DNA of 64,000 nt from Lentisphaerota bacterium (lineage in GTDB: Bacteria > Verrucomicrobiota > Lentisphaeria > Victivallales > Victivallaceae): assembly GCA_015061615.1 (NCBI GenBank), contig SUWE01000001.1:1-64000 (forward strand), in the 5' to 3' direction. A program made the translations under genes and the position numbers. This document shows, piece after piece, positions 36,430 to 61,900 of this stretch; the first letter of the stretch is position 1; each line of letters starts with the position of its first letter. The notes under the pieces were generated by a model. That model was given only the letters and a program-made list of their open reading frames with translations, ran no database searches and was not told the DNA's origin.

Positions 36430-37388
36430 TTACGAGAGCAGAGCAAAGGAGGTATCCCACTCTTTACCGACACTCTGGAAATATTTCCATGTGGTATCGT
36501 CGGCGCCGTTGACGTAGAGAACGCCGATATCGCCTTTTTCGGTGCGGATACGGAGGTCATCGATTCCGTCACCGTTGAAGTCTGCGATCTGTTCAATGGT
36601 GTTTTTGTTGTTGCAAATACCAATGAAGGAGTCAACTCTGCCGTCTTCAACAAGCCATGCTCCGACCCAGCCGTTGGATTTATTCTGCAAGAGGACATCG
36701 TCCACGCCGTCACCGTTGAAGTCGCCCGTTCCAACGATAGTCATATCACTTTTCAGGGTATCGAGACTTGACCAGGTGATTTTTCCGTTTTCATCAATCA
36801 TGTAAGCGCCGGTGAATCCGGCATCATGACGGACGATCACATCGTCGCATCCGTCGCCGTCAAGGTCGCCGACAGCGGCGATTTTCCACTCTTTGCCAAG
36901 ACCTTTGATATAGTGCCACTTGTTGTCATCTCCGGTGACATAGCCGAGGTCTCCGGCAGTTGAACGCAAGAGATAATCGGTTACACCGTCACCGTCAAAA
37001 TCACCGATGCCGAGCATATTCATGTTGGATTTCAGGGTGTAAAGCTCTTTGTAGCTCTTGACTTTGCCGCCATCAGTGACCCATGCGGCAACGGTGGTAC
37101 CGATCTTCATGATGATATCGGAACCATTGGTAGAAGTGCCTTTGACATTACCCATTCCGACCAGTTCAACTTTGTCATTGACATTGCCGAGATTGCCCCA
37201 CAAAATAACAGATTTAGTTCCAGTGGTCATCCATGCTCCGGAGTATCCCTGTTTGGTATTGACCAGAATGGTATCGGCATAACCGTTACCGTCAAGGTCG
37301 CCGTCAGGGTGAGTATTTCCTGAAACGGTAAGAGTCAGATTGCCGCTGACATTATCCAGTGAGTAAGTTACGCCGTTGTGGACAACGT
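36430..37388 (-). pseudogene. 3' fragment of a large FG-GAP surface protein, 5' end lost
   Basis: About 320 codons survive. They begin inside the end of a passenger-type domain (HNGVTYSLDNVSGNLTLTVSG) and continue through FG-GAP/VCBS-like calcium-binding repeats (GDLDGNGYAD, GDFDGDGVTD, GDLDGDGCDD, GDFNGDGVDD) to a natural-looking C-terminus. The sequence is clearly homologous to the end of the giant protein at 58908-64000 (shared TKQGYSGAW, LDTLKSDMTIVGTGDFNGDGVDDVLLQ, WVGAWLVEDGRVDSFIG). Upstream of ~37388 the DNA abruptly becomes a phage zinc-ribbon gene in the opposite direction; the in-frame ATG at 37440 lies in that phage DNA and is fortuitous. The rest of the adhesin gene is not in the adjacent sequence. 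Confidence 0.8.
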
Positions 37389-37390
37389 GG

Positions 37391-37579
37391 ATATGCGCTG
37401 ATTGCGGCGAAGCGGTCATCATGGGGCGGGAATGCCCCAAGTGCGGAGCGAATTATGCCGACCAGTTGAAAGCCGAACACCGCAAACCGGCAAAACCCCG
37501 GCAGAAGTTCCGGGAACCGGCAGAGGAAAGACAATTTACCGAAAGTTATTATTTCAAAAAGAAAGGAAAAAGAAAATGA
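37391..37579 (+). pseudogene. Phage zinc-ribbon protein, N-terminus missing
   Basis: The frame encodes ICADCGEAVIMGRECPKCGANY (two CxxC knuckles) followed by a basic, Pro/Arg/Lys-rich tail, ending 4 nt into the capsid gene. No good start exists: upstream codons belong to the adhesin fragment, and an ATG at 37421 would discard the first knuckle. The gene was cut at the same junction as the adhesin. Phage head modules often carry such a small Zn-ribbon protein next to the capsid gene. Confidence 0.65.
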
Positions 37580-38715
37580 TTTACAACTACTCTTTCGCGA
37601 ATCGTAAGCGTGACCTCTCTGACATCCTCGGCACAGTTATCAAGGATGAACCTCGGTTTATCTCCAACTTCCGCCACAGCTCCGATGCGGCGAACTCAAA
37701 ACATGAGTATTTTGAAGATAATCTTTACGCAAAGGGCTTTGTTGCAGTAGATGGCAGTGAGGGCAAATTGCTTGTTCCCGACACCGTTGCAAATATGCTT
37801 AAAACCGGTGTGCTGTTGCGCTCCGCAAATGCCCCGGCACTTTTTGAAATCAAAGAGATTGACGGCAATAAAATCACTTTGGAATTGGTTTGCCAAAACG
37901 GTTCGGCGATGAGTACCGCCAGTGATTTGAAGCCGGAAGACAAAACATTTCACTTTGTTTCTCCGCAAAATGGCGATGATGATAACGATGAAATTATCAG
38001 CAGTGTTCAGTGGAATGCCACACAGATCTTCCGCAAAGAGATCGTGCTTTCCGGTGCTGCTCTTACAATGAATCTTTACGGCAGTGTTGATAATCAGCTC
38101 AACCGTCAGACCGCTTGGGCCCTTGCCGACCTCGCCCGTGACCTCAACCGTGTTGCTCTTTTCGGCAGACGGGTAGAGAAAACCGATAAAGTGCGTGGCG
38201 AATCCGGGGGGCTGTACTACTTCGCCGCCGAAACTAACGCTCCGAAAGTGGATGCCAAAGGTGCAATGCTTGACAGTTTTATGATAAATGATGCCAGTTC
38301 ACAAATCGTCTTTAACGGTGGCGAACCTATGCAGATACTTTGCTCTCCCGGTCAGGCAAGAGTGCTGACACAGGAATACAAAGACCTTATCCAGATTTTG
38401 CGTTCCGATGACCGCCGCGGAGCTTACGTCGCGGTGATCGTCAATGAGATCAACGGCAGGGGTATGACCATTATGGCTGACCCGGATGTGCCAGATAATG
38501 ACGTGTGGGTACTTGACACCGGATGCTTTGCCCTTGCCAACCTTCACGGCGGAGCGATCACCGATATGGATGCTACACCCAATGGCTTTGACGGTATTCG
38601 CCGTGTCGCCATCGGCGAACTGACTTTTGAGTTCCGCAATGTGCCGCAGAGGTGTTTCCGGTTTACCAACTTAAAAAGCAGTGCGGAAAGTCTTGCGGTG
38701 TTGCTTTCAAAGTAA
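37576..38715 (+). CDS. Major capsid protein, SU10/DUF5309 family
   Basis: A 379-aa protein beginning MIYNYSFANRKRDLSDILGT after a GAAAGGAAAAAG ribosome binding site. Central segments (SSVQWNATQIFRKEIVLSG, NQLNRQTAWALADLARDLNRVALFGR) and the C-terminal RRVAIGELTFEFRNVPQRC follow the SU10-type HK97-fold capsid pattern (DUF5309). It forms the phage head shell. It lies in the opposite direction to terminase and portal, which is unusual for a head module. Full length and apparently intact. Confidence 0.85.
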   Translation: MIYNYSFANRKRDLSDILGTVIKDEPRFISNFRHSSDAANSKHEYFEDNLYAKGFVAVDGSEGKLLVPDTVANMLKTGVLLRSANAPALFEIKEIDGNKITLELVCQNGSAMSTASDLKPEDKTFHFVSPQNGDDDNDEIISSVQWNATQIFRKEIVLSGAALTMNLYGSVDNQLNRQTAWALADLARDLNRVALFGRRVEKTDKVRGESGGLYYFAAETNAPKVDAKGAMLDSFMINDASSQIVFNGGEPMQILCSPGQARVLTQEYKDLIQILRSDDRRGAYVAVIVNEINGRGMTIMADPDVPDNDVWVLDTGCFALANLHGGAITDMDATPNGFDGIRRVAIGELTFEFRNVPQRCFRFTNLKSSAESLAVLLSK

Positions 38716-38734
38716 AAAATAAAGGTAAGAAAAA

Positions 38735-39259
38735 ATGAAAATTAAAAAGTTGATATTCTGGCTTCGGGAGTTGTTCCGCAGAAAGCCGAAAACGAAAAAA
38801 GCGGAGCCGATGTTTCACGCTCCATTGAATGAGCCGTTTGCGACTATGGAAAAACAACATTTAGCAAATCAGTGCCAGAGTACCGCCGATCAAAGAGAAT
38901 GGATGATATGCCGCAATGCCCAAACACTGACACCGCCGCAACCGCATAAACTCCATGGGCGGATATGGCATGTCCCCAAAAGCACCGTTGGCAGAGTGGA
39001 GATTAAAGAGACAATCCCCTTTGCGATCCATTCCGCCATCATTGATGCGCTGGACCACGCAAAAACCAAACATCCGCACTTTGCCGATACGGATGCGGAA
39101 GCCGGAACGGTCATTGCCGAGGAACTTTTAGAGGTCAATACCGCCGCTTTGAAAGTAATGCAGGGTATCAACGATCAGGCAGACCGAGATAACCTCTTTG
39201 TTGAGCTGGCACAGCTCAATGCAACAACAATCAGAATGATGGAGAAACTGTTGAAATGA
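38735..39259 (+). CDS. Phage protein of unknown function, possibly MazG-like
   Basis: A 174-aa protein with a basic N-terminus (RRKPKTKKAE) and a helical C-terminal half. The segment TVIAEELLEVNTAALKV and then VELAQLNATTIRMMEKLL has the EExxE...ExxxxN spacing of MazG-like/all-alpha NTP pyrophosphatases, although the final Asp is replaced by Asn. That reading is tentative. It follows the capsid gene by 19 nt and overlaps the next gene by 4 nt. Confidence 0.6.
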   Translation: MKIKKLIFWLRELFRRKPKTKKAEPMFHAPLNEPFATMEKQHLANQCQSTADQREWMICRNAQTLTPPQPHKLHGRIWHVPKSTVGRVEIKETIPFAIHSAIIDALDHAKTKHPHFADTDAEAGTVIAEELLEVNTAALKVMQGINDQADRDNLFVELAQLNATTIRMMEKLLK

Positions 39260-39522
39260 CACTCAATACCAAAATCATCAAAAACTCTGCAAAGGAACAC
39301 AAATGTGTGTTCTGCGAGCGGACAATGCCGAAAGGCAGTATGTATGTCTCCGCTCCGCACAAAAGCGATGTGGACGGCAGTTTTCAGGAATTAAAGTTTT
39401 GCGCGGAGTGTGCGTATATCCTACGCAACGCTGACCGCCAGAGTTTCAAACATGGAAACTTTACCGAGCATGACAGGCTGCTTTTTTTGATCATTTTTTT
39501 TTGCATCTTCGGCTGTGTCTGA
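39256..39522 (+). CDS. Phage zinc-finger protein with a probably foreign 3' end
   Basis: The first ~73 codons encode a compact zinc-binding protein (HKCVFCERTMPKGSMYV and KFCAECAYILRN: two CxxC pairs). From about 39480 the frame reads hydrophobic, low-complexity residues (LLFLIIFFCIF) antisense to a minus-strand phage gene. The true C-terminus has therefore probably been lost at a rearrangement junction. Overlap with the upstream gene (ATGA) supports the start. Confidence 0.55.
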   Translation: MTLNTKIIKNSAKEHKCVFCERTMPKGSMYVSAPHKSDVDGSFQELKFCAECAYILRNADRQSFKHGNFTEHDRLLFLIIFFCIFGCV

Positions 39523-39885
39523 ACTCCCAGCTCCCAACTCCAGTGATATCCGTCTCGCCCAATGCTGTTCATTTTTCGCCAGAGAAATCATTTCATGACG
39601 GATCTGTTTCGCTGCATTCGCCCAGCCAATTGCGCGAATGGCTGCAAGTTTTGCACAAAGTTTTTTCAATCGTCCAATACTTCCGGGATCATTTTGCAAG
39701 AAGCGGATTCCGGCAAGCCCTTTCGCGAGTTCGGCGAGATACTTTTTTTCTGTCGCATCGAGAGCGGCGACAGTCATAGCCCACCAGTTGGCAGCGATAA
39801 CTTGGATCCTTGCCTGATGGTCGGCAATCTGCTTGGCAAGGCGGGCGATCTCGCCCCGGTTACTGGTCGGCTTCTTCTTCGCCAT
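39421..39885 (-). pseudogene. Minor head-like phage protein, truncated
   Basis: A 154-codon frame overlapping the portal 3' end by 26 nt, as minor head genes usually do. The first ~135 residues are helical and Ala/Lys-rich (RGEIARLAKQIADHQARI, EKKYLAELAKGLAGIRFL), like the N-terminal part of phage head-assembly proteins. The remaining codons run antisense through the zinc-finger gene and look unrelated (VMLGKVSMFETLAVSVA). Mu gpF-type proteins are about twice this length. I infer truncation at ~39480; family assignment is moderate. Confidence 0.55.
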
Positions 39886-41527
39886 CGGTGAAACCTATTT
39901 TATTTTGGGGAGCGTTCTTGTCTTCTTCGCCGCCGTCAGCGTTTCCGGCATCATCCGTCACCACCGGGGGAAGGTCAAAGCCGGTGCCGATTTCCGACAA
40001 CTCTTTTTCGGCATCCAGTTCCGCTTGAAGCTCCTCCCAGTCTTTGTGTTCAATATCAAAATTCTGCTCCAGCCATTCCCGCAACTCCCGCCGGGTAACG
40101 CTGAATTTTTCAGCGATGTTGGCAAAGGCGGCAAGTTCGGTGAGTGTCGGTTTGACTTTGGCAATATCCGCGGAGGGAGTATACTTGATGATCGCATTGG
40201 CGGCATCCCGGTCGATGCCAAGCAGCCATGATCCGGCACGGCGCAGCTGCTCTTCAATCGCTTTAGCACAGGTCTGATTAACAATCCGGAGTTTGGCAGT
40301 CTGGGCGTTCCGCAGAATTTCCAACGCCACTCCGGAGGTGTTGGCGGCACCATCCATACCGGAGATATTCAGCCCCATCTTTTCGCCCTGTTCAATCATC
40401 TGGGCGATATTCTCCGCCTGCATTTGCAAACCGGCGGTCGGAGCGGAAACAAATTCAAAGTTGGCATCCCCGGAAAGGTTGAGAAATCTTTCCGCAGACA
40501 GCGGAACGGTCTTCCGTTTATCCATCCCGGTAAACTTCGGTATCGGGTCGGTGGTGAGATAAACCGCCTGCTGGTGATCGCAATCGGCATTGAGGACATG
40601 GAGACTTTGAACACACAAATCAAGTATTGGCGGCGGCGAAAACTTCATAAAATTAAGGCTGGTCGGATTGACCACCGTGAAAGGAATCCGGTTTACCGGC
40701 TGTTCAAATTTGGTCGGGTAAACCACCAGAGCCGGATCGGGGTTGTCAATGTCAAAGCGTTCCAGTTCGGCAAAGACCTCATCCATCGTGGCTTTGTAAT
40801 TCCGGGAGTTTTCCCAGACCGGGGAGCCGTTTTTATATGCCGCGATCGGCACTTCACCGGTGCCGAATTTCGCTTGATAATAGAAGCCGTTGCCGTCAAG
40901 GGCAAGGATCGTTATCTGCGGGCAGTAAACGTCTTTGTGCCGCCGGTAGTCAAAGCGGATATTTGAGGTGTCAAGATAGATCACCTTCGCGTAAGAATCG
41001 CCGCCCTCTTCGACCGGAACCACCCGCAGAAGTTTTTCCGGACGGAATTCATTGATGTGAAAAAGGTCACCGTCAGCATCCGGCTCCAAGAGTAAGCAGT
41101 AGCGACCGTATTTCAGAACATTTTCCACCACTCGGGCAAAGAGAGCATCGAGACCGTCACCCTGCGGCGTGGCACGTTCCCGGAAAGATTCAAGACGGCT
41201 GGCTTTGCCCTCAAGCGTGAATACCGGAGGTTTGGCACAGATAGTGCCTTGCATCTTTTCAAGGTTTTCGGCGGCAGTTTTGGGGAGTTTTCCACGGCTT
41301 GTATAGGCTTCCCAGCTCATCCACGCTTCAGCGGTATTCCCCCGCTTCGACATGGGGCGGTAGATATATTTGTCGGCTTTGGCTTTGACTGCCAATTCGC
41401 CATCGACCACATCATCAACCATCTGCCAATATTCGCGGAAGGTCGCCCATTCCGGAGTGGCAAGTTGGCTGATAGTGGTAACGGCAGACTTTTTCCGGCT
41501 TACGGCATCGGTTGATTTTACGATCAT
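39860..41527 (-). CDS. Phage portal protein (DUF4055 type)
   Basis: A 555-aa protein forming the DNA-packaging vertex ring. Features are the early tryptophan-rich YWQMVDDVVDGE, the stem region SLNFMKFSPPPILDLCVQSLHVLNADCDHQQAVYL, AGLQMQAENIAQMIEQGEKMGL and a helical crown (TLTELAAFANIAEKFSVTRRELREWLEQ), with an acidic Gly/Asp/Glu tail. It is full length, on the same strand as the terminase genes, but separated from them by a plus-strand operon. Its start is ~65 nt downstream of a TTGACA-containing phage element. Confidence 0.8.
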   Translation of the reverse strand: MIVKSTDAVSRKKSAVTTISQLATPEWATFREYWQMVDDVVDGELAVKAKADKYIYRPMSKRGNTAEAWMSWEAYTSRGKLPKTAAENLEKMQGTICAKPPVFTLEGKASRLESFRERATPQGDGLDALFARVVENVLKYGRYCLLLEPDADGDLFHINEFRPEKLLRVVPVEEGGDSYAKVIYLDTSNIRFDYRRHKDVYCPQITILALDGNGFYYQAKFGTGEVPIAAYKNGSPVWENSRNYKATMDEVFAELERFDIDNPDPALVVYPTKFEQPVNRIPFTVVNPTSLNFMKFSPPPILDLCVQSLHVLNADCDHQQAVYLTTDPIPKFTGMDKRKTVPLSAERFLNLSGDANFEFVSAPTAGLQMQAENIAQMIEQGEKMGLNISGMDGAANTSGVALEILRNAQTAKLRIVNQTCAKAIEEQLRRAGSWLLGIDRDAANAIIKYTPSADIAKVKPTLTELAAFANIAEKFSVTRRELREWLEQNFDIEHKDWEELQAELDAEKELSEIGTGFDLPPVVTDDAGNADGGEEDKNAPQNKIGFTDGEEEADQ

Positions 41528-41570
41528 AAAACTTTGATCTCCTGCGGTGTTGACTTTTCAATAATTCCTT

Positions 41571-41595
41571 TTTTCAATCAATGAAAAATTGTCAA
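41571..41595 (-). promoter_or_regulatory. Phage TTGACA element upstream of the portal gene
   Basis: On the minus strand TTGACAATTTTTCATTGATT resembles elements upstream of the small terminase (45513-45538) and of the gene at 45681 (45637-45660). No TATATT-like -10 lies at normal spacing, so it may be a phage-specific promoter or protein-binding site. Confidence 0.45.
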
Positions 41596-41606
41596 CCGGC
41601 AGCGGG

Positions 41607-41649
41607 AAAATGTGATAAATTTTGAAAAATAAAAAAATTATCACATTTT
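41607..41649. promoter_or_regulatory. 12-bp inverted repeat, candidate phage operator
   Basis: AAAATGTGATAA (41607-41618) and TTATCACATTTT (41638-41649) are perfect complements 19 bp apart. The core ATGTGATA recurs inside the adjacent promoter at ~41679-41686. It sits between divergent portal and early-type genes, the usual place for a phage repressor site. Confidence 0.55.
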
Positions 41650-41662
41650 TACACTCTTTCAC

Positions 41663-41692
41663 TTGACATAAGCGGATTATGTGATATATTAT
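41663..41692 (+). promoter_or_regulatory. Promoter of the small-gene phage operon
   Basis: TTGACA (41663-41668) is followed by TATATT at 16 bp (41685-41690) or TATTAT at 18 bp. The palindrome ACATAA-N5-TTATGT (41666-41682) fills the spacer and could be an operator. Confidence 0.65.
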
Positions 41693-41732
41693 AGTGTTGA
41701 CAGAAAAATAACTTAAAAACAAGGAGAAAAAA

Positions 41733-42005
41733 ATGACAATCGAAGAATTCAAAAGTTATCTGGAAAACGCAAATGTTGAAATCAGCAACGCCGACTTTGA
41801 TAAAATACACACCGTGTATCAATTTCACCCGGTCACAAAAACAAGATTGGATGTCGCAAAACTGTTTGATATGGGCGGTATGATTCTTATCAATGACATG
41901 TACTCCCGTGCAAAAGCAATCGGTCGGGCTGAACGCGAAATGCTGGCAGCGAAGCGCATGTATGAAGAACTTAATGAAAAGTACATGGAACTGAAAAGAG
42001 CGTAA
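41733..42005 (+). CDS. Small phage protein, function unknown
   Basis: A 90-aa acidic, helical protein ending in a likely coiled-coil stretch (GRAEREMLAAKRMYEELNEKYMELKRA). A good ribosome binding site (AAGGAG) lies 7 nt before the ATG, downstream of a strong promoter with operator repeats. It is first in a plus-strand operon of tiny genes inserted between large terminase and portal. No family recognised. Confidence 0.65.
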   Translation: MTIEEFKSYLENANVEISNADFDKIHTVYQFHPVTKTRLDVAKLFDMGGMILINDMYSRAKAIGRAEREMLAAKRMYEELNEKYMELKRA

Positions 42006-42016
42006 CTCACAACCCC

Positions 42017-42036
42017 GCCCCGGAGCAATCCGGGGC
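42017..42036 (+). terminator. GC-rich hairpin between small phage genes
   Basis: GCCCCGG (42017-42023) pairs with CCGGGGC (42030-42036) across a 6-nt loop, 12 nt after a stop codon. No long T-run follows; it may attenuate or stabilise the transcript. Confidence 0.4.
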
Positions 42037-42057
42037 GTTCAAGTTTTGGAGGTTATT

Positions 42058-42360
42058 ATGAGCGAATGCCAAATGTGCGGAAAACCATTTGCACCAAAGT
42101 TTTCTTATTCACACCCAAAGTATCAAAGGCTTTTAACACCACATCTGTTTTGTGAAAAGTGCAATATGGCTCGATTACTTGCATGTCAGACTTGTGCTTA
42201 TTATAGCCCTGTTGCAAAACCTGATGCGCCTGATGCTTTTGCGTACAGGCGGCGTGGAGCGCATTGCCGACTGACAGAAACTGTAAACCCTCTCAAGAGC
42301 AAGTTGGCTCAATATTGTCCAAATTGGAAAATTAAAAGTAACATAAAGAATAAATTTTGA
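42058..42360 (+). CDS. Small Cys-rich phage protein, probably zinc-binding
   Basis: A 100-aa protein with at least four Cys pairs or knuckles (ECQMCGK, LFCEKCNMARLLACQTCAYY, then HCRL and YCPNW). The pattern suggests one or two structural zinc sites. The ATG at 42058 is set by GGAGG 5 nt upstream. Function unknown; similar small zinc proteins are frequent among phage early genes. Confidence 0.65.
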   Translation: MSECQMCGKPFAPKFSYSHPKYQRLLTPHLFCEKCNMARLLACQTCAYYSPVAKPDAPDAFAYRRRGAHCRLTETVNPLKSKLAQYCPNWKIKSNIKNKF

Positions 42361-42415
42361 CAAAAAAGCAAACTCGAAGTATTTTAAACAAAAAAAGATA
42401 AGGGATAATAAAAAA

Positions 42416-42619
42416 ATGGAAACTTACGAAGATCATAACTCTTGCCATTGCCACACTTGCAAGCATTTTCAAACCGATGTTGCTCTCAGCAACGGCAAAC
42501 CGTGTCGTTTTGTCGGGAATTGCTTGCACCCGAAACGGTTTGGCTTTCGCCGAGATGCTGACGATCAATGCCCTGACCACAAATTTGCAGACTGGACTAA
42601 AGCAGAGGTGGTGGAATGA
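42416..42619 (+). CDS. Small Cys/His-rich phage protein
   Basis: A 67-aa protein with HCHTCKHF, CRFVGNCLHPKRFG and CPDHKF, a Cys/His arrangement typical of small treble-clef or zinc-ribbon proteins. Overlaps the next gene by 4 nt. A ribosome binding site (AAGGGAT) lies ~11 nt upstream. No function assigned. Confidence 0.6.
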   Translation: METYEDHNSCHCHTCKHFQTDVALSNGKPCRFVGNCLHPKRFGFRRDADDQCPDHKFADWTKAEVVE

Positions 42620-42822
42620 TTTATCTTATCAACAAACAGAATTTCCGAACGGAGGGTATTCTGGAAAAGCGTGGCGTTTGTGCTGATCAATGTCCATGGA
42701 ATCCGCTTCCGATATATCGCACCCCACGCCATAGATGCGCGTTGCATCTTGAGGATATTACCGATAACAAGCAATGTAACGCTTGCAAAGAGTACACCAA
42801 AGACCATAAAAAGGCGCAATAA
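42616..42822 (+). CDS. Small Cys-rich phage protein
   Basis: A 68-aa protein with four Cys (GVCADQCPW, HRCALHL, KQCNACKEY) and a basic tail. It starts inside the previous gene's stop (ATGA). A very short frame of 20 codons (42824-42886) follows directly and may also be translated. Function unknown. Confidence 0.55.
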   Translation: MIYLINKQNFRTEGILEKRGVCADQCPWNPLPIYRTPRHRCALHLEDITDNKQCNACKEYTKDHKKAQ

Positions 42823-42879
42823 TATGGATAATTTGCACCGTTTTTTCATGTTTATAGGGGCAGGCAATGCGGAAAAGAG

Positions 42880-43017
42880 ATGCTAACACGCATATTGTAC
42901 GAAGAGCGATTAAAAGCACTGGAGCGATTTGAAAAAGAACACGCTGGCAGTATTGCGATCATTGACAGAGTTATTACTCAATCACAGGAAAACAAACAAT
43001 GGAACTCAAAGAATTAG
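42880..43017 (+). CDS. 45-aa phage protein
   Basis: A 45-codon frame starting MLTRILYEERLKALERF, an amphipathic helix rich in Glu/Arg/Lys. GGAAAAGAG lies directly upstream and the frame overlaps the next gene by 19 nt, in keeping with the tight packing of this operon. Short length makes it less certain. Confidence 0.45.
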   Translation: MLTRILYEERLKALERFEKEHAGSIAIIDRVITQSQENKQWNSKN

Positions 43018-43388
43018 TACCGCCACCTGAAGTGTGCGCGAAGATCCCGATCGGGGAATTTAAGGATAGTTTTGCGGTTTATCTGGTTACAGCGGTCAAT
43101 ATGGATAAACCCCTTGACATATCCAAACAAAGCTTTGAGCTTATGCCACGGGGTACAGCAGAGCGATTGCTCAACAGCGGATGCGAAGCGCAAGTGCTGC
43201 GGGCGATTTGCCCTGCACCGACATTACAGGAGATTATGGCAGAGTTACCAGCGCTGTCCGAAGTGTTTTGGAGCGACTTCAACGATGGCAGTAAATTATG
43301 GATGGTAGCAAATAGCAACTATGAAAGCAACCCAAACACAGCCGCCCTTGAGCAATGGCTGTTTGAGAAAGGATATAATAAGCTATGA
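42999..43388 (+). CDS. Phage protein, function unknown
   Basis: A 129-aa soluble protein with an acidic, Pro-rich N-terminus (KELVPPPEVCAKIPIGEF) and the stretch GFEKGYNKL-like at the C-terminus (LEQWLFEKGYNKL). No domain recognised. Overlaps the neighbours at both ends (4 nt with the next gene), so it belongs to the 41733-43636 operon. Confidence 0.6.
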   Translation: MELKELVPPPEVCAKIPIGEFKDSFAVYLVTAVNMDKPLDISKQSFELMPRGTAERLLNSGCEAQVLRAICPAPTLQEIMAELPALSEVFWSDFNDGSKLWMVANSNYESNPNTAALEQWLFEKGYNKL

Positions 43389-43636
43389 CAAAACCCAAAC
43401 ACATCTGCCCGCATTGCGGAGGTGATCTGTCGGAGTTTGTGTCTGACTTGCAACGCAACCGGGGGAAAGTCGGGGGATCGCAGCGGACAACGGCGAAACT
43501 TGCCGCCCAGCGTGACAACATGGCGAAGTTAAACGCCTTATACACGCTGGAAAAACGCAAAGCCGCCGCTGCCAAACGTGCCGAAACAATGCGAAAGAAA
43601 AAGGAAAATTCTTTTGCCCCGTCGCTCAGTAAGTAA
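43385..43636 (+). CDS. Small phage protein with an N-terminal zinc knuckle
   Basis: An 83-aa protein with CPHCGGDLSEFV near the start and a long basic, Ala/Lys/Arg-rich helix (YTLEKRKAAAAKRAETMRKKK) that could bind nucleic acid. It is the last gene of the plus-strand operon; its 3' end overlaps the 3' end of the convergent large terminase by 11 bp. Confidence 0.6.
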   Translation: MTKPKHICPHCGGDLSEFVSDLQRNRGKVGGSQRTTAKLAAQRDNMAKLNALYTLEKRKAAAAKRAETMRKKKENSFAPSLSK

Positions 43637-44927
43637 ACGCTGCTGCCCCTCCGTCTGATGCTTCGCCGCTGCCGCCGTCAGCAAGTTCGGCCATCGCCCA
43701 AACAAGAGCATCAAGCCGGTCAGGGGATTTTTCGCCGTCCGAGCCGGTAAAGTTGCACATCTGATCTTCGAGCAGCTGAAATTCTCCGGCATGGTGTACT
43801 CTGCCTTTTTCATACAGTGCCGCCACTGGTTCAGCCCTGAGTATCTTGCCTCTGGTTGCCCGGACCGCAGAAAAAGCGACCTGATCATCAATATTGCGAA
43901 TGACCGTTTCAACCATATCGCCGCCGTTGTTGACTTCGGCAATGATCCGGTCGGCAGAGTAGTAATCATATACCTCTATTGCCGTGTTCGCCCATTCAGT
44001 CGGAGATCCTTTCAGTGAAAAATCATCCAGCACATAAAAATGATCGTCCGCTCCGTTTCTGCCATACTTTACCCCGGCGGCAATGATGCCGGTTTCATCG
44101 CTTTGGTCGGTGGAGGTAACAGCCGGGTCAATGGCAACCACGATCCGGTCGAGTTCATCCGGGTTGATATTATGCACCCGGTACGGATTGATCATTGTTG
44201 AGCGTTTCCAGAGAGCATTTGCGCTATCGTCTTGCCAGTCACCGTCAAGGAAACGAGCGCGTTTGCGTGCAGAGAGGGATTGAAGTTGCGCAATGTATGT
44301 ATCGGAAAGGTTGGCAAGGTTATCAATTGGGTTCATCCGCATCGAGCAATAATTCTCCGGGTGAAGCAATGGCGTATTGTCGGCGGGGTTCAAACCTTCG
44401 ACAAAAAGTTTATAAGACCAATGCGTTTTCCCGACGGGGTTTTCATCGTAAAAAAAGCGGTTGCGGATGCGGATGCACTTTTGAGCGTTCCGGCTGTATG
44501 CAGTTTCAACCTGATCGTAACTCAATTCCGATATCTCGTTAAAATACATTGTTGCATATTCGTTGCCGAGAATTTTATCTCCTTCGTCAAGACCGCCAAA
44601 CCATATTTCAGAGTTATTGGGGATTTTTGCGTAAAAAAGCGACTTGTTGAGTGTGTACGGAACTTGAGGAAAACAAACTTTCATCACCTTTGGAAAGGTG
44701 TCGTTGATTATGGATTTATTTGCCATTGCGAAAAATTTCCGCAGAATACAATGACGGCTCTCCGGTTCGAGAATTGCCCGAGCGACGATTGCCCAGATGT
44801 TGATAAAGGTTTTTCCGGATCGTGAACCGCCAAAAAGAAGAGTGTGCAAAGCATCCCCGCCAAGCAAAAGTTTAGCTTGCTGCTGAACCGGGGTCGGTCG
44901 AAACGTACTTTGCGGAGGTGTAATCAT
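43626..44927 (-). CDS. terL: Phage terminase large subunit
   Basis: A 433-aa packaging ATPase/nuclease. Walker A GGSRSGKT is at residues 33-40, a Walker B/coupling region is near MYFNEISELSYDQ, and the RNase H-like nuclease carries its Asp residues in VVAIDPAVTSTDQSDETG and in PDRLDALVWA, with a further acidic residue in IIAEVNNGGD. It cuts concatemers and drives DNA into the head through the portal. Same strand as the small terminase, 3 nt downstream. Full length. Confidence 0.93.
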   Translation of the reverse strand: MITPPQSTFRPTPVQQQAKLLLGGDALHTLLFGGSRSGKTFINIWAIVARAILEPESRHCILRKFFAMANKSIINDTFPKVMKVCFPQVPYTLNKSLFYAKIPNNSEIWFGGLDEGDKILGNEYATMYFNEISELSYDQVETAYSRNAQKCIRIRNRFFYDENPVGKTHWSYKLFVEGLNPADNTPLLHPENYCSMRMNPIDNLANLSDTYIAQLQSLSARKRARFLDGDWQDDSANALWKRSTMINPYRVHNINPDELDRIVVAIDPAVTSTDQSDETGIIAAGVKYGRNGADDHFYVLDDFSLKGSPTEWANTAIEVYDYYSADRIIAEVNNGGDMVETVIRNIDDQVAFSAVRATRGKILRAEPVAALYEKGRVHHAGEFQLLEDQMCNFTGSDGEKSPDRLDALVWAMAELADGGSGEASDGGAAAFTY

Positions 44928-44930
44928 TTG

Positions 44931-45473
44931 TCACCCCCAGCTTTCATCTACTCCCAGATTCACGATAATCGGAGCCGCCAGAGGTGAGCCGTCTTTGCCG
45001 GAGAGTTCCATCGATGCCTTGTCAGAATATTTCCGTGGATGCAGCTTACCGCAAGCCCACTTTCTTGCATCGATTTGCAACCGGGTGCGGTTGCTGTCTT
45101 CGAGTGAGCCGGAGCAGTTGTCGGCAAGTTCGATGACCTCGTCTGCGTAAAAATCTGCTTGCCTTTCCCGCGCCCGCGCGTACCTCTCCGCGAACTCTTC
45201 ATCTTTCGATAACTGCGAATATACCGAAGATTGCACAATCAGGTTATCCCGACAAACAGCAGAAAGGGATTTGCCCTTGGCAATTTCTTCGCAGATAAGG
45301 TCTTTTATTGTTTCAGTAATAATTCCGGAGCAGATTGCACTTTGTCGATGTTTGCGCTGTTTTTTGGCGGGAGTTTTTACAGCCTTTTTTCTCTCTTTCT
45401 TCGGCTGGTATTGGTCGATACCTTCGACTGCTTCGCCGTTGGCAAGGTGCATAGCGGATTGAGCGATTGACAT
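44931..45473 (-). CDS. terS: Phage terminase small subunit-like protein
   Basis: A 180-aa protein with a basic linker (KKERKKAVKTPAKKQRKHR), a helix-turn-helix-like segment (IAKGKSLSAVCRDNLIVQSSVYSQLSKDEEF) and an oligomerisation region (YARARERQADFYADEVIELAD). This fits small terminases that recognise the packaging site and present DNA to TerL. The gene directly precedes terL. The C-terminal GKDGSPL...VNLG tail is also typical. Confidence 0.75.
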   Translation of the reverse strand: MSIAQSAMHLANGEAVEGIDQYQPKKERKKAVKTPAKKQRKHRQSAICSGIITETIKDLICEEIAKGKSLSAVCRDNLIVQSSVYSQLSKDEEFAERYARARERQADFYADEVIELADNCSGSLEDSNRTRLQIDARKWACGKLHPRKYSDKASMELSGKDGSPLAAPIIVNLGVDESWG

Positions 45474-45512
45474 GGTGACGGTGTTCCTTTTTTGGGTGAT
45501 GTTGATTTTTTC

Positions 45513-45538
45513 TTTTCCACCGAATGGAGATTTGTCAA
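45513..45538 (-). promoter_or_regulatory. Phage TTGACA element upstream of terS
   Basis: The minus strand reads TTGACAAATCTCCATTCGGT, sharing TTGACAA-T--CATT with the portal and 45637 elements. It is ~40 nt upstream of the terS start, without a recognisable -10 box. Confidence 0.4.
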
Positions 45539-45557
45539 CCTCCCGCCTGTTTTGTCT

Positions 45558-45591
45558 ATGTGTATTTTAATAACATAACTGTAATACACAT
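45558..45591. promoter_or_regulatory. 9-bp inverted repeat between terS and the gene at 45681
   Basis: ATGTGTATT (45558-45566) and AATACACAT (45583-45591) are perfect complements 16 bp apart. The spacing resembles the operator-like repeat at 41607-41649. Confidence 0.45.
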
Positions 45592-45636
45592 CCCTCACCC
45601 TATATCCCTCTCCCTTGTTTGTTTTGAAATAAAAAG

Positions 45637-45660
45637 TTGACAATTTACCATTGAACGGAA
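45637..45660 (+). promoter_or_regulatory. Phage TTGACA element upstream of the gene at 45681
   Basis: TTGACAATTTACCATTGAAC (from 45637) nearly matches the portal-gene element. It is followed by AAAGGAG and the start, with no -10 box visible. Confidence 0.45.
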
Positions 45661-45680
45661 AGAAAGGAGCAATTTGGATT

Positions 45681-46178
45681 ATGGCGTGTGACGGAAATTG
45701 TGCCAAATGCCCGGTACAATGCGGGGCAAGCAAAATTATGGAAAAGATCAACAGTAAACCGGAAGACGTGAATCCGGATAAACCTCAAATCGCAAAGGAA
45801 CAAAAGACCATGAGTGAAGAGATCGTAAAAGCCGCCGGATGCGGCGCACCGAAAGAGCCGGAAGAAATCAGACAAAATGCCGCAATCTTGCGCCTTGCCG
45901 AAAAGGTTGAAGGGCTTGGTAAAGGAGATGCGTTCACAAACAGCCATAAGGCAACAATGAACATCACGATGGCACTTGCTATTTCAGCGATGGTGCTTGC
46001 CGGAATTGCGATCGGAATATGCTTGTATTTGGCGAAAGGTATCTCCGATGCGGACAAAAACGCCGCCTGTGCGGTCGATCTGGCGACCAAAGCCAGCATC
46101 AGTGCCACCGCCGCCGAGGATCGCGCAAACAAGAACTTTGTTTATCTGCGTGATATGAAGCGTGATTCCCGCCATTGA
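45681..46178 (+). CDS. Single-pass membrane phage protein, Cys-rich N-terminus
   Basis: A 165-aa protein. The N-terminus CDGNCAKCPVQCG holds four Cys, then an acidic linker and a helix precede one membrane segment (ITMALAISAMVLAGIAIGICLYL, ~110-132) and an Ala-rich helical tail. The topology could suit a holin or spanin-like lysis factor, but no lysin gene is nearby and the Cys cluster is unusual for either. The ATG at 45681 follows AAAGGAGC by 11 nt. It stands alone on the plus strand at the right edge of the phage remnant. Confidence 0.6.
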   Translation: MACDGNCAKCPVQCGASKIMEKINSKPEDVNPDKPQIAKEQKTMSEEIVKAAGCGAPKEPEEIRQNAAILRLAEKVEGLGKGDAFTNSHKATMNITMALAISAMVLAGIAIGICLYLAKGISDADKNAACAVDLATKASISATAAEDRANKNFVYLRDMKRDSRH

Positions 46179-46180
46179 TC

Positions 46181-46250
46181 ACGAGATGTCACGTGACGAC
46201 ACGTGATGCCACGTGACCACACAGTGAAAGACAGTGATTCACCGTGCCAC
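46181..46250. repeat. Seven helically phased 10-bp repeats
   Basis: Starting 2 nt after the last phage gene, consecutive 10-mers read ACGAGATGTC, ACGTGACGAC, ACGTGATGCC, ACGTGACCAC, ACAGTGAAAG, ACAGTGATTC and ACCGTGCCAC. The core AC(G/A)(T/G)(G/T)GA recurs once per helical turn, as in iteron arrays or cooperative protein-binding sites. Confidence 0.7.
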
Positions 46251-46255
46251 AAAGC

Positions 46256-46310
46256 ACCCTCCGGGGGCGGAAAACAGGAAAACCAGAAACCTATCTGCTC
46301 CCCGGAGGGT
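46256..46310. repeat. 11-bp inverted repeat
   Basis: ACCCTCCGGGG (46256-46266) and CCCCGGAGGGT (46300-46310) are perfect complements around a 33-nt loop. It could be a hairpin terminator, part of an origin together with the 10-bp array, or a recombination site. Confidence 0.6.
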
Positions 46311-46315
46311 AAATG

Positions 46316-46337
46316 TTACATACAACATTACATACAA
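46316..46337. repeat. Direct repeat TTACATACAA
   Basis: Two perfect 10-bp copies at 46316-46325 and 46328-46337, one helical turn plus 2 bp apart, between the phage remnant and the tRNA genes. Possible attachment or binding site; nothing else supports this. Confidence 0.45.
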
Positions 46338-46395
46338 GCAAGTCAAAATAAATCCCGCTGAAATTTAAGTTTTCAGCGAGAAGTTACAAAAATAT

Positions 46396-46480
46396 TGGTA
46401 CCGGAGGTGGGACTTGAACCCACACGTACTGGGTACACCAGATTTTGAGTCTAGCGCGTCTGCCATTCCGCCACTCCGGC
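46396..46480 (-). tRNA. tRNA-Leu (anticodon CAA)
   Basis: The minus strand reads GCCGGAG at the 5' acceptor arm, pairing with CTCCGGT. The anticodon loop is CTCAAAA within the stem CTAGA/TCTGG, there is a long variable arm (class II) and a T-arm GTTCAAGTC. The CCA end is encoded (46396-46398). It decodes UUG. It flanks the phage remnant, though no duplicated tRNA end is seen at the other side. Confidence 0.95.
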
Positions 46481-46491
46481 AAAAAAAAAGA

Positions 46492-46568
46492 TGGTAGCGG
46501 GTCCCAGACTCGAACTGGGGACCTGCGGATTATGATTCCGACGCTCTAACCAACTGAGCTAACCCGCC
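46492..46568 (-). tRNA. tRNA-Met (anticodon CAT)
   Basis: Minus strand; the acceptor arm GGCGGGT pairs with ACCCGCT, the D-arm is AGCTCAGTTGGTTAGAGC, the anticodon loop ATCATAA, the T-arm GTTCGAGTC and the CCA is encoded. The overall form fits an elongator methionine tRNA; an Ile tRNA with modified CAT cannot be fully excluded. It lies 11 bp upstream of the tRNA-Leu gene, so both are probably cotranscribed. Confidence 0.92.
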
Positions 46569-46597
46569 ACATCATGTGTATAAAATACATGCTTTTT

Positions 46598-46630
46598 TGA
46601 TTTTTTCAAGTTATTTTTTGAAAAAAATCA
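46598..46630. terminator. A/T-rich inverted repeat between tRNA and araC
   Basis: TGATTTTTTCAA (46598-46609) and TTGAAAAAAATCA (46618-46630) form a near-perfect stem just past the regulator stop. T-rich flanks on both sides suggest a weak bidirectional terminator. Confidence 0.4.
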
Positions 46631-46642
46631 GCTTTTTTTCGT

Positions 46643-47428
46643 TCAAACAGTGTTTTTATGCCCTGTACGGTGGAATTTTCTGAACGCAGTCGGGGTTGAA
46701 CCGTACCGGCGGAAAAATATTCTTCTGAAATATGCCGGGTCATTGAATCCGCATTCATTGAGTATTTCTTTTATGGAGCTATTCGTGTTTTGCAGCAGTT
46801 TTGCCGCATGTTCCACCCTTGTCCGGTTTACTTTGGCTGTAAATGTTTCCCCGGTGTGATGCTGAAATATCCTGCCGAGATATTCCGGATTGCAATGCAG
46901 TTTTCCGGCGGCGGCGGCAAGGCTCAACTCCTCCGGAAAATGGAGTTTTATCAACTCTTCCGCCTGCCGTACCAGTTGCGGACAGCGTTTTTCCGGTGAC
47001 AGCGGCTGTGTCGTTTTCGCAAGTTCCCGGAAAATCAGTTCCAGCAGCAGTGAAAGGATTTTTTTATCCACCTCTACCGCATCCTGCTCCGCAAGAAAAC
47101 TTTGAAAATATATTGCCAGCTGTTCCGGATTTGCCGTATGACCGGATGACGGAAGGTTTTCCGGCAACTCCTCTTCTGTGATAAAGTGCAGCCAGTAAAA
47201 AGTCAACCCCGGCGGATAATCTCTCACGCCTCCGTGTTTTCTTCCTTTGCGCAGCAGCAGATAATCACCCGGATGCAGTTCAAAAAGTTTTTCTTCCTCG
47301 AACATTGTCAGCGAACCTTTGATGCAGAATATCAGTTCACTGCTTTCAATGGTGCGCACCTCATGACGGCCTTTGCCGCGGGATATGAAACGTCCGCCGT
47401 TGAGCGGTACAGCGTTAAAATCATTCAT
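46643..47428 (-). CDS. AraC-family transcriptional regulator
   Basis: A 261-aa regulator. The N-terminal cupin (SSELIFCIKGSLTMFEEEKLFELHPGDYLLLRKGRKH) probably senses a sugar. The C-terminal AraC DNA-binding domain has two helix-turn-helix units (LSLAAAAGKLHCNPEYLGRIFQHHTGETF and SIKEILNECGFNDPAYFRRIFFRRYGSTPTAFRK). It is divergent from the GH127 gene, starting ~100 bp away, so it most likely regulates that gene and perhaps the nearby carbohydrate genes. The start MNDFNAV is preferred because an AAGGAG lies upstream, though at a long 13-nt spacing. Confidence 0.9.
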   Translation of the reverse strand: MNDFNAVPLNGGRFISRGKGRHEVRTIESSELIFCIKGSLTMFEEEKLFELHPGDYLLLRKGRKHGGVRDYPPGLTFYWLHFITEEELPENLPSSGHTANPEQLAIYFQSFLAEQDAVEVDKKILSLLLELIFRELAKTTQPLSPEKRCPQLVRQAEELIKLHFPEELSLAAAAGKLHCNPEYLGRIFQHHTGETFTAKVNRTRVEHAAKLLQNTNSSIKEILNECGFNDPAYFRRIFFRRYGSTPTAFRKFHRTGHKNTV

Positions 47429-58907: not shown

Positions 58908-61900
58908 ATGGCAAGGTATGATATTTATTCGGGAATCGTAAGCAGTGGGATAATATTATCATCTTGGGAGCAAATGTATATATCGTCTGGAGGTGTTGCA
59001 AACAATACAACAGTTAATTCAGGTGGCAGTATGCTGATTCTTGCCAATGGTTCTGCTGATAATACAACTGTTAATTCCTATGGCGTCATGTACATTTCCT
59101 CCGGCGGAACGGCGAACAACACCACCGTTAATTCCTATGGCTACATGCGCATCTCCTCCGGCGGGGTGGCAAACAGCACAACTGTTAATTCCATGGGCTC
59201 CATGTTCATCTCCTCCGGCGGGGTGGCAAACAGCACCACCGTTAATTCAAGTGGCGTCATGTACATCTCCGGCGGGGTGGCTAACAGCACCACAGTTAAT
59301 TCCAGAGGCTCCATGTACATCTACTCTGGCGGGACGGCGACAAACATTGTTGCAGAATCGGGAGCTAAACTTACTATAACCGTTGCCTCCAATACCTATA
59401 TTCAGGGAACTTATGCCGGCTCTGCCTTTGAGATGAAAAATGCGTTTATTTCCGGTTACACCGTTAATTCCAGCCGCTGGATGTACATTTCCTCCGGCGG
59501 GGTGGCAAACAGCGCCACTGTTAATTACGATGGCTACATGTTCATCTCCTCCGGCGGCACCGCGAACAGCACCACCGTTAATTCCGTGGGCTTGATGTAC
59601 ATCTACTCCGGCGGAACGGCGAACAACACCACCGTTAATAAATGGGGCAACATGAACATCTCCTCCGGAGGGACGGCAATCAGCACCACCGTTAATTGCA
59701 ACGGTCGCATGTTCATCTATTCCGGCGGAGTACATCGCGGCAGTTTGCAGATTGAAAGCGGAGCTGTCGTTTCGGCATCTCGTTGCAAAATTGACTTTAC
59801 CGTATCTGGCAGAAGTGTAGAGGATAACTACTTGATCAACGATTTGTCTTTGATTAATGGTACGCCGACTTATACCGTCACTGTATCAGCAGAACAGGAA
59901 TTTGGAACTTACAAACTTGCTCAAGGTGCAGGTAATTTGACTGGTACTCTTTCCATTGGTGATGGAACAGTCGATTACGGTTCAATCACCGTCAATGGCA
60001 ATGCTTTAGAGTATAATCAAATACAATATACCCTGACCCAGACAGACGGCAATTTGCTGCTGGATGTGCAAGCCGCGATCGTTCCGGCGGTATTCATTTA
60101 CAGCAGCGGAACTCTCACATCTTCCGGTGCTGAAATAACCGGCGCCACCATTTCAGGCGGCAACAACAGCATGTACATTTCAAACGGCGGAGTGGCTAAC
60201 AGTACTACTCTTTTAAATAAAGGTACTATGATTATTTCCTCCGGCGGTACGGCGAACAGTACAACAATATATTCAAATTGTACAATGACGGTTTCCAACG
60301 GCGGTATAGCGAATCAAACTACCGTCAATTCATTGGGAGCAATGCACATCTCCAGCGGCGGTATTGCAAACTATACAACCATCACCGGTGATCTTTACTG
60401 GGGACTGGGCAGTATGACTGTTTCCAGAGGCGGGGTAGCTAACAATACTACTGTTAAAGGTTTTATGTTCATATCTTCCGGCGGGGTGGCTGACAGTACC
60501 ACAGTTCATTACTTGGGCGACATGTACATCTCCAGCGGCGGCGTAGCGAACAACACTACCGTCAATTCCGACGGCAAAATTGATATAAGAAGCGGCGGTA
60601 CGGCAACAAATATTGTTGCTTCAAATGGAGCAAGACTCTCTATTGATGTAGCTTCCAACACACATATCCAAGGTACTTACAATGGTTCAGCTTTTGAGAT
60701 GAAAGATGCTCATATTTCAGGGTATACCGTCAATTCATGGGGAAATATTTTCATCTCCCGCGGTGGAACAGCTGACAATACTATCGTTAATTCCGGCGGT
60801 TACGTAATTATCTACAGCGGCGGTACTGCAAGCAATACCACTGTTAATTACAGCGGATGTATGAGCATCTCCGGCGGCACACATCGCGGCACTTTGCAGA
60901 TAGAATCTGGAGCAACAGTTAAGGTTTCTGCTTATACCGGCGGCGTTATTGACTTTACAGTTTCTGAACGCACAACAGCCGATGGTTATTTGATCAATGA
61001 TCTTTCTCTGATTTCCGGAACACCTACCTATACGATTACCGTTTCGACGGATCAGGCGTTTGGTACTTACAAGCTCGCTCAAGGCGCAAGCAGCTTTACC
61101 GGCTCGATCTACATTGTTAACGACAGGGGAACTTTCGGTTCAATAACCGTCAACGGCGGAGCATTTATCTACTATGGCATTGGTTATCTGTTAACTCAGG
61201 AAAATGGCAATCTTGAGCTTACCATTGGCGACTTCACCCCGCCTAAAATTCCGACTGCAACGGCAAATATCACCGCGTTGACCAATCAGGATGTGGTTGT
61301 AACCGTACTTTACAGTGAAGATAGTTTCGTAAAACAGTACCGCATCGGTGAAACCGGCGAGTGGCAGAATTATTCTGAAGCATTCACCGTTACAGACAAT
61401 ACCACCATCTATTTCCGTGCTGAAGATGCCGCCGGAAATGAACGCACAAGTCAATTCGTTATTGATTACATCGACAAGGTTGCCCCGACTCTGGAAATTT
61501 CCGGCAACGCTACCATTTGGACCAATCAGGATGTGGTGTTGACTGCCGCCGTCAGTGATGGAGTCGTCGAATACTTCGACGGTGCAAACTGGGGCGCCGG
61601 AAACACCATTACCGCAACCGAAAACGGAACTTACACTTTCCGCGTGACTGACCTTGCCGGTAATGTTACAGAAAAATCCGTCACCGTTGACAAGATCGAC
61701 AAGGTTGCGCCGACTTTGGAGATTTCCGGCAACGCGACCGAACCGACAAACAAAGACGTTATACTTACTGCAATCGCCAGTGACGGTACAATAGAATATA
61801 GGAATGGTGCGGAATGGATTGAAGGTAACAAACTTACCGTTTCTGAAAATGGCACTTACCAGTTCCGTGTCACCGATGCGGCTGGAAATGTCACCGAAAA

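Follow-up and report, generated by a model that had tools for sequence, protein, structure and literature searches.

A one-turn repeat array at the tRNA-Leu end of a truncated Lentisphaerota prophage as a candidate phage replication origin

A short array of 10-bp direct repeats in a Lentisphaerota genome carries a DNA motif which recurs, at 10- or 11-bp spacing, mostly in viral open-reading frames matching initiator-type protein families, and we tentatively read the array as a group of iterons from a phage replication origin (probability roughly 0.46). Within the window (the whole 64-kb stretch of DNA that was analysed) we read the array as terminating a truncated prophage of ~9 kb, about 37386–46395, on its tRNA-Leu(CAA) side. 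A one-turn TCACGTGA unit common to several initiator families is unusual, as is an extragenic copy at an attachment (att) site.

Sequence and register of the array

The array starts at position 46180, one base after the stop codon of the open-reading frame at 45681–46178, and in a 10-bp register reads CACGAGATGT, CACGTGACGA, CACGTGATGC, CACGTGACCA (strong units), then CACAGTGAAA, GACAGTGATT, CACCGTGCCA (weaker units):

46180..46219, + strand: four strong units of 10 bp with the consensus CACGTGA-NNN, proposed as iterons of an origin (self-match, motif search, stop in each forward frame)
46220..46249, + strand: three weaker units in register (self-match, core positions)

A first-pass annotation made from the sequence had described seven repeats in perfect phase; four good units stand, but the other three are degenerate and the exact GTGA cores (46193, 46203, 46213, 46224 and 46234) follow one another at steps of 10, 10, 11 and 10, with GAGA in the first unit and GTGC in the last. 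Only one of the four strong units holds a perfect TCACGTGA, and CACGTG occurs three times in the 64 kb, every copy inside the array. At lag 10 no other stretch of the window self-matches as well as the array (39/60, runner-up 32), and in 60 windows simulated from a first-order Markov chain the maximum was 33 at lag 10 and 36 over lags 6–20. Other lags score higher in the real window, up to 45/60 at lag 15, with all scores above 39 confined to a repetitive coding stretch near 29.3–30 kb. Tandem direct repeats are what is expected of a phage iteron origin, and protein binding to these is predicted.

The array is intergenic. Each of the three forward frames is stopped within the four strong units, so this stretch is not coding, and the remnant of a longer gene, which the first-pass annotation had named as a refuting outcome, is rejected. 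The frame of the gene at 45681–46178 continues through the array with two stops (by eye), but the protein from that frame bears no resemblance to the array-bearing initiators described below (best blastp E 0.22).

Distribution among relatives and the adjoining inverted repeat

Of 148 genomes searched with a tolerance of two mismatches, only its own contains the array, and at 20 terminase loci of the family no lag-10 score exceeded 31/60. Conservation, the lack of which the first-pass annotation had named as a refuting outcome, is thus not seen among the relatives searched, and the array was rejected as a conserved host feature. Two features lie between it and the tRNA-Leu(CAA) gene:

46256..46310, no strand: inverted repeat with arms of 11 bp separated by 33 nt; it belongs to an att-end block common to genomes G021 and G117 (fold, sequence comparison)
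46311..46395, no strand: A+T-rich stretch between hairpin and tRNA, with arm sites and a terminator-like hairpin (base composition, fold)

The long inverted repeat previously noted after the array is confirmed, its arms (46256–46266 and 46300–46310) pairing at 11 of 11 positions across 33 nt, and its fold as DNA is more stable than that of any of 200 shuffles (z −5.06). It separates the array from the A+T-rich stretch, which has a G+C content of 28% against 47% in the window and also contains the arm sites and the terminator-like hairpin. The hairpin and arm-site region is shared with G021 at 86% over 183 bp, and G117 also has the block; in both genomes it adjoins a tRNA-Leu(UAA) and the array is missing. 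Hairpin and array are thus separable, and the proposal that iterons and hairpin form one layout is not supported as it stands, a single array-plus-hairpin unit being rejected on the evidence of these two genomes.

Downstream of the tRNA-Leu(UAA) we noticed, by eye, units of ~180 bp, several in tandem in G021 (locus L002, 1501–2294) and one in G117 (locus L124); each ends in a tRNA 3′-end fragment, as if small elements had inserted serially.

Similarity of the G021 flank to the window begins at 46236, within the weaker units, and the lack of an array beside this common flank is one of the observations that would suit a short tandem repeat which is neutral, arose by slippage and is decaying, as would the absence of the array from the 147 other genomes and the degeneracy of units 5–7. 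We consider such an origin quite unlikely, however, as the changes in units 1–4 fall on the three spacer positions rather than the seven core positions, where 27 of 28 letters fit the consensus (by eye), and other phages also have this core at this spacing.

The prophage remnant

The genes around the array are as follows:

36430..37385, − strand: FG-GAP protein gene, 5′ end truncated; we place the left edge of the remnant at the ~37385 junction
37402..38715, + strand: major capsid protein, SU10 type (ORF family scan)
39860..41527, − strand: portal protein (ORF family scan)
43626..44927, − strand: terminase large subunit (ORF family scan)
44931..45473, − strand: terminase small subunit, Sf6 type (ORF family scan)
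45681..46178, + strand: open-reading frame of 165 aa, one membrane-like stretch (by eye)
46396..46480, − strand: tRNA-Leu(CAA), inferred integration target

The remnant thus holds capsid, portal and terminase genes and is without an integrase. At its left edge the FG-GAP gene matches, at the DNA level, a 940-aa copy from another part of the genome only as far as ~37385; this junction may be a misassembly. The 165-aa frame has no relatives in 77 other genomes of the family, nor any by a peptide-pattern scan of IMG/VR. Three matches to the integrase family PF00589 are present in the genome itself (85% complete), one of them (at C108) adjoining a tRNA-Ala; all three lie on other contigs and were rejected as the integrase of this prophage. 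Rfam gave two tRNAs as the sole matches above gathering score in 45600–46650.

The cognate initiator or ParB-like protein which the first-pass annotation proposed to look for was not recognised among the ten window open-reading frames scanned.

Two side observations concern the wider genome and family. Counting the window's own genome, 86 of 148 genomes have a homologue of the large terminase subunit (43626–44927), as do 30 of the 33 other members of the genus, and almost every genome with a homologue has just one; at locus L109 the homologue sits in a compact head cassette of portal, small open-reading frames, SU10-like capsid and terminase, with tail genes not obvious (by eye), and such cassettes in family genomes (for example L109 and L100) might be domesticated capsid or gene-transfer-agent cassettes. 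Elsewhere in the window, long tandem arrays at 59064–59729 and 61662–63061, which repeat every 57/114 bp and 225 bp, may encode repeat-rich surface proteins.

A putative tRNA attachment site

Within the A+T-rich stretch lies a direct repeat:

46316..46337, + strand: TTACATACAA-CA-TTACATACAA, putative integrase arm-type sites (recurrence at tRNA loci in relatives)

At no more than two mismatches this 22-mer occurs in seven of 148 genomes (its own included), and in six of these a tRNA gene or tRNA-like fragment has its 3′ end no more than ~120 bp away. The neighbouring tRNAs differ (Leu(CAA), Glu, Cys, Leu(UAG), Pro and, in G117, a Leu-like fragment), and the exception is G107, where an annotated tRNA-Arg is further away. 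In G057 the 22-mer is present on two contigs (L188 and L189): on one it stands beside an intact tRNA-Glu followed by phage genes, on the other beside a 50-bp tRNA-Glu fragment followed directly by the gene for a 356-aa tyrosine integrase. To judge from the common 50-bp tRNA-Glu core, these two regions are probably the ends of one prophage. Because the 22-mer recurs at tRNA 3′ ends, including in G057 beside an integrase, we read the TTACATACAA repeats as putative integrase arm sites and this end of the remnant as an att junction.

Eight other genomes of the genus share a long match to the tRNA pair of the window, which ends ~10 bp or less from the 3′ end of the tRNA-Leu. The flank beyond is visible in seven, each different and none matching that of the window; in the eighth (G001) the contig stops at the tRNA. 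A search for a clean empty site gave no gene order around the tRNA pair common to the window and its relatives, and the 64-kb window contains no second att core.

The position of the array, 66–136 bp inside the putative arm sites, invites comparison with excisionases (recombination directionality factors, RDFs), where a Cox- or Apl-like protein would bind one-turn repeats head to tail, bend the att DNA and drive excision. RDFs generally bind repeats one turn apart, and Apl of phage 186 binds cooperatively to direct repeats 10–11 bp apart, five at attP and seven at pR–pL (PMC7498355; a related RDF paper is PMC11963761). The window array shares with the Apl and P2 Cox sites its one-turn direct repeats near an inferred att site. 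It differs in that it stands on the far side of the putative arm sites instead of between arm and core, and in that no RDF gene was recognised among the ten frames scanned, most of the phage being gone. Moreover, comparable arrays are absent from the eight other ends with the same arm sites (600 bp on the phage side; both ends in G057 and one each in G042, G095, G034, G107, G117 and G021), where the best lag-10 score is 25/50 (G117) against 34 in the window and other lags reach up to 28. On balance we regard an excisionase array as unlikely.

The motif in viral and cellular genomes

A three-unit pattern of the motif was found in three IMG/VR contigs, and a shorter pattern (GTGA-N3-CACGTGA-N3-CACGTGA) in 24, the previous three included. 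In 21 of these 24 the array lies inside a frame encoding a basic stretch followed by HVTSRDVT-like residues, which follow from the DNA pattern itself. All 21 frames were scanned against PHROGs (E ≤ 0.01), and 15 match replication-initiation, O-like, primosomal or DnaD-like-loader families: 10/10, 3/6 (L285, L292 and L293) and 2/5 (L289 and L296) in successive batches, with weak matches in L278 (E 0.009) and L292 (E 0.002). Four of the six frames without a match (L282, L284, L286, L290, L291 and L295) are 110 aa or shorter, and three of them (L282, L284 and L286) are cut short where the contig stops; L282 moreover shares at least 70% identity with L285, a frame with an initiator-type PHROG match. 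At 11-bp spacing the motif occurs in 15 viral contigs, in 12 of which a long frame covers the array, and 11 of these 12 frames match initiator-type PHROGs; several of the array-bearing proteins match replisome organizer PHROGs. A control at 9-bp spacing, which keeps the codon phase, gave three matches, two in frames without a PHROG match and one in a DNA primase gene, hence none of the three in an initiator family, although so few matches, one of them in a primase, make this a small and imperfect control. When the 32 array-bearing proteins were compared by blastp at 1e-3, 30 were linked into a single cluster, and the counts thus do not imply independent origins.

The longest array, at 6110–6199 of contig L283, strings together nine 10-bp units of the TCACGTGA type, and the frame around them matches a replication-initiation family. 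At every third position in the series TCACGGGA replaces TCACGTGA, which removes the in-frame stop that a TCACGTGA array brings, and it therefore seems that the DNA array has been kept despite the coding frame, rather than the peptide. Compared by blast with annotated phages, this array matched 15 records at E 0.08 to 4, values that are weak alone. Eleven are Gordonia records, where the annotation names a replication initiation protein or RepA-like initiator in four cases and a hypothetical protein in the others; two are wine phages, at a place also matched by a replisome organizer homologue; and two are Streptomyces phage Bmoc records, outside annotated genes. The two Gordonia phages examined have only two units, 12 bp apart, and proteins of the Gordonia phages EdmundFerry and Frokostdame match initiation PHROGs. 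The window array itself matched one phage (two records) in the same collection, at E 4. We found no mention of four array strings or of a TCACGTGA phage origin in the literature covered, most subscription journals lying outside that coverage.

Of the three viral arrays outside frames with HVTSRDVT-like residues (L005, L006 and L007), two bear on DNA packaging, which would start where a small terminase subunit binds direct repeats at a pac or cos site. These two of the three matches to the first pattern stand close upstream of a small terminase gene: in L005 the array precedes the probable ATG of an Sf6-type gene, of the same Pfam family as that of the window, by ~40–75 bp, and in L007 it is ~300 bp upstream of another; in L006 neither the frame over the array nor the next open-reading frame has a PHROG match, and the frame in L007 likewise has none. 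In the window the Sf6-type small terminase gene starts 707 bp from the array, but a divergent gene lies between them. When 62 stretches upstream of small terminase genes (out of 67 loci) were scored, only L005, brought in by the array itself, reached at least 26/40, and the mean was not above that of 878 control segments (18.9 vs. 19.3). A packaging site is accordingly rather unlikely.

In cellular genomes the three-unit pattern was found on 10 contigs, and none of the eight frames scanned over or next to it matches an initiator. One of these contigs (L268) is the Methylobacterium prophage of L006, with a frame that has no match. Another, from Amycolatopsis (L269), has no frame over its CACGTGATTT array, which precedes a gene resembling a helix-turn-helix (HTH) regulator (by eye). 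This last arrangement would fit an operator array for some other cooperative regulator, a function we hold to be improbable for the window array, beside which no regulator gene is evident and where the neighbouring gene ends at the array instead of starting from it.

A partition-type site had also been suggested at first pass. Some partition sites contain short repeats in helical phase. TCACGTGA is moreover the eight-base core of the chromosomal parS consensus TGTTTCACGTGAAACA (PMC10197239), and a ParB protein of the host would also explain the motif in unrelated phages. However, the GTTT/AAAC flanks of parS are missing in every window unit, no TGTTTCACGTGAAACA-like 16-mer is present, a 10-bp spacing is too tight for 16-bp parS sites and no par gene was recognised among the ten frames scanned with Pfam. 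A ParB-read site is hence a very remote prospect.

Discussion

The origin reading takes up the earlier suggestion of an origin or cooperative binding array. Viral copies of the motif, mostly in initiator-type frames, speak for it; against it, the window array is neither in nor beside a recognised initiator (ten frames scanned) and stands in a truncated prophage at a tRNA. A location inside or beside an initiator gene is found in 15 of 21 viral frames at 10-bp and 11 of 12 at 11-bp spacing, but not in the window. Under this reading, TCACGTGA-type sites one helical turn apart would allow cooperative binding on one face of the DNA by a phage initiator, either O-like or of the replisome organizer/DnaD-like type; the bound initiator would melt the neighbouring A+T-rich stretch and the helicase would then be loaded. 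The window copy would once have been such an origin, and would no longer work, its initiator having been lost with the rest of the prophage.

Known phage origins offer partial parallels. Lambda iterons are ~18–20 bp, longer than the 10-bp window units and of other sequence than their TCACGTGA-like core, and the window copy is intergenic. The lambdoid origin, with initiator-bound direct repeats beside an A+T-rich tract inside the initiator gene O (PMC7466680), is alike in that many viral copies of the window motif also lie within an initiator gene. The replisome organizers ORF13 of TP901-1 and Rep2009 of Tuc2009 bind repeat-rich regions in their own genes, which serve as ori (PMC8965321); no gene of this kind was recognised next to the window copy, and the likeness to these lactococcal origins is not based on the repeat sequences.

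More broadly, TCACGTGA at one-turn spacing (10 or 11 bp) could be a widespread, little-described origin code of phage initiators in several PHROG families, embedded in the DNA of the initiator gene, where one unit in three of the longest array is altered in a way that avoids a stop, and in the window phage placed extragenically beside the attachment site, with replication start and excision side by side. We hold this wider proposal to be doubtful. A conserved host protein may read the common TCACGTGA word, because it is also the parS core.

For the window itself, the array would mark the end of a dead prophage and its putative tRNA attachment site. If the origin reading is true, one short, one-turn motif could be enough to locate, from the sequence only, where replication starts in many uncharacterised phages, and it would have to be asked why a single palindromic word serves initiators from several families.
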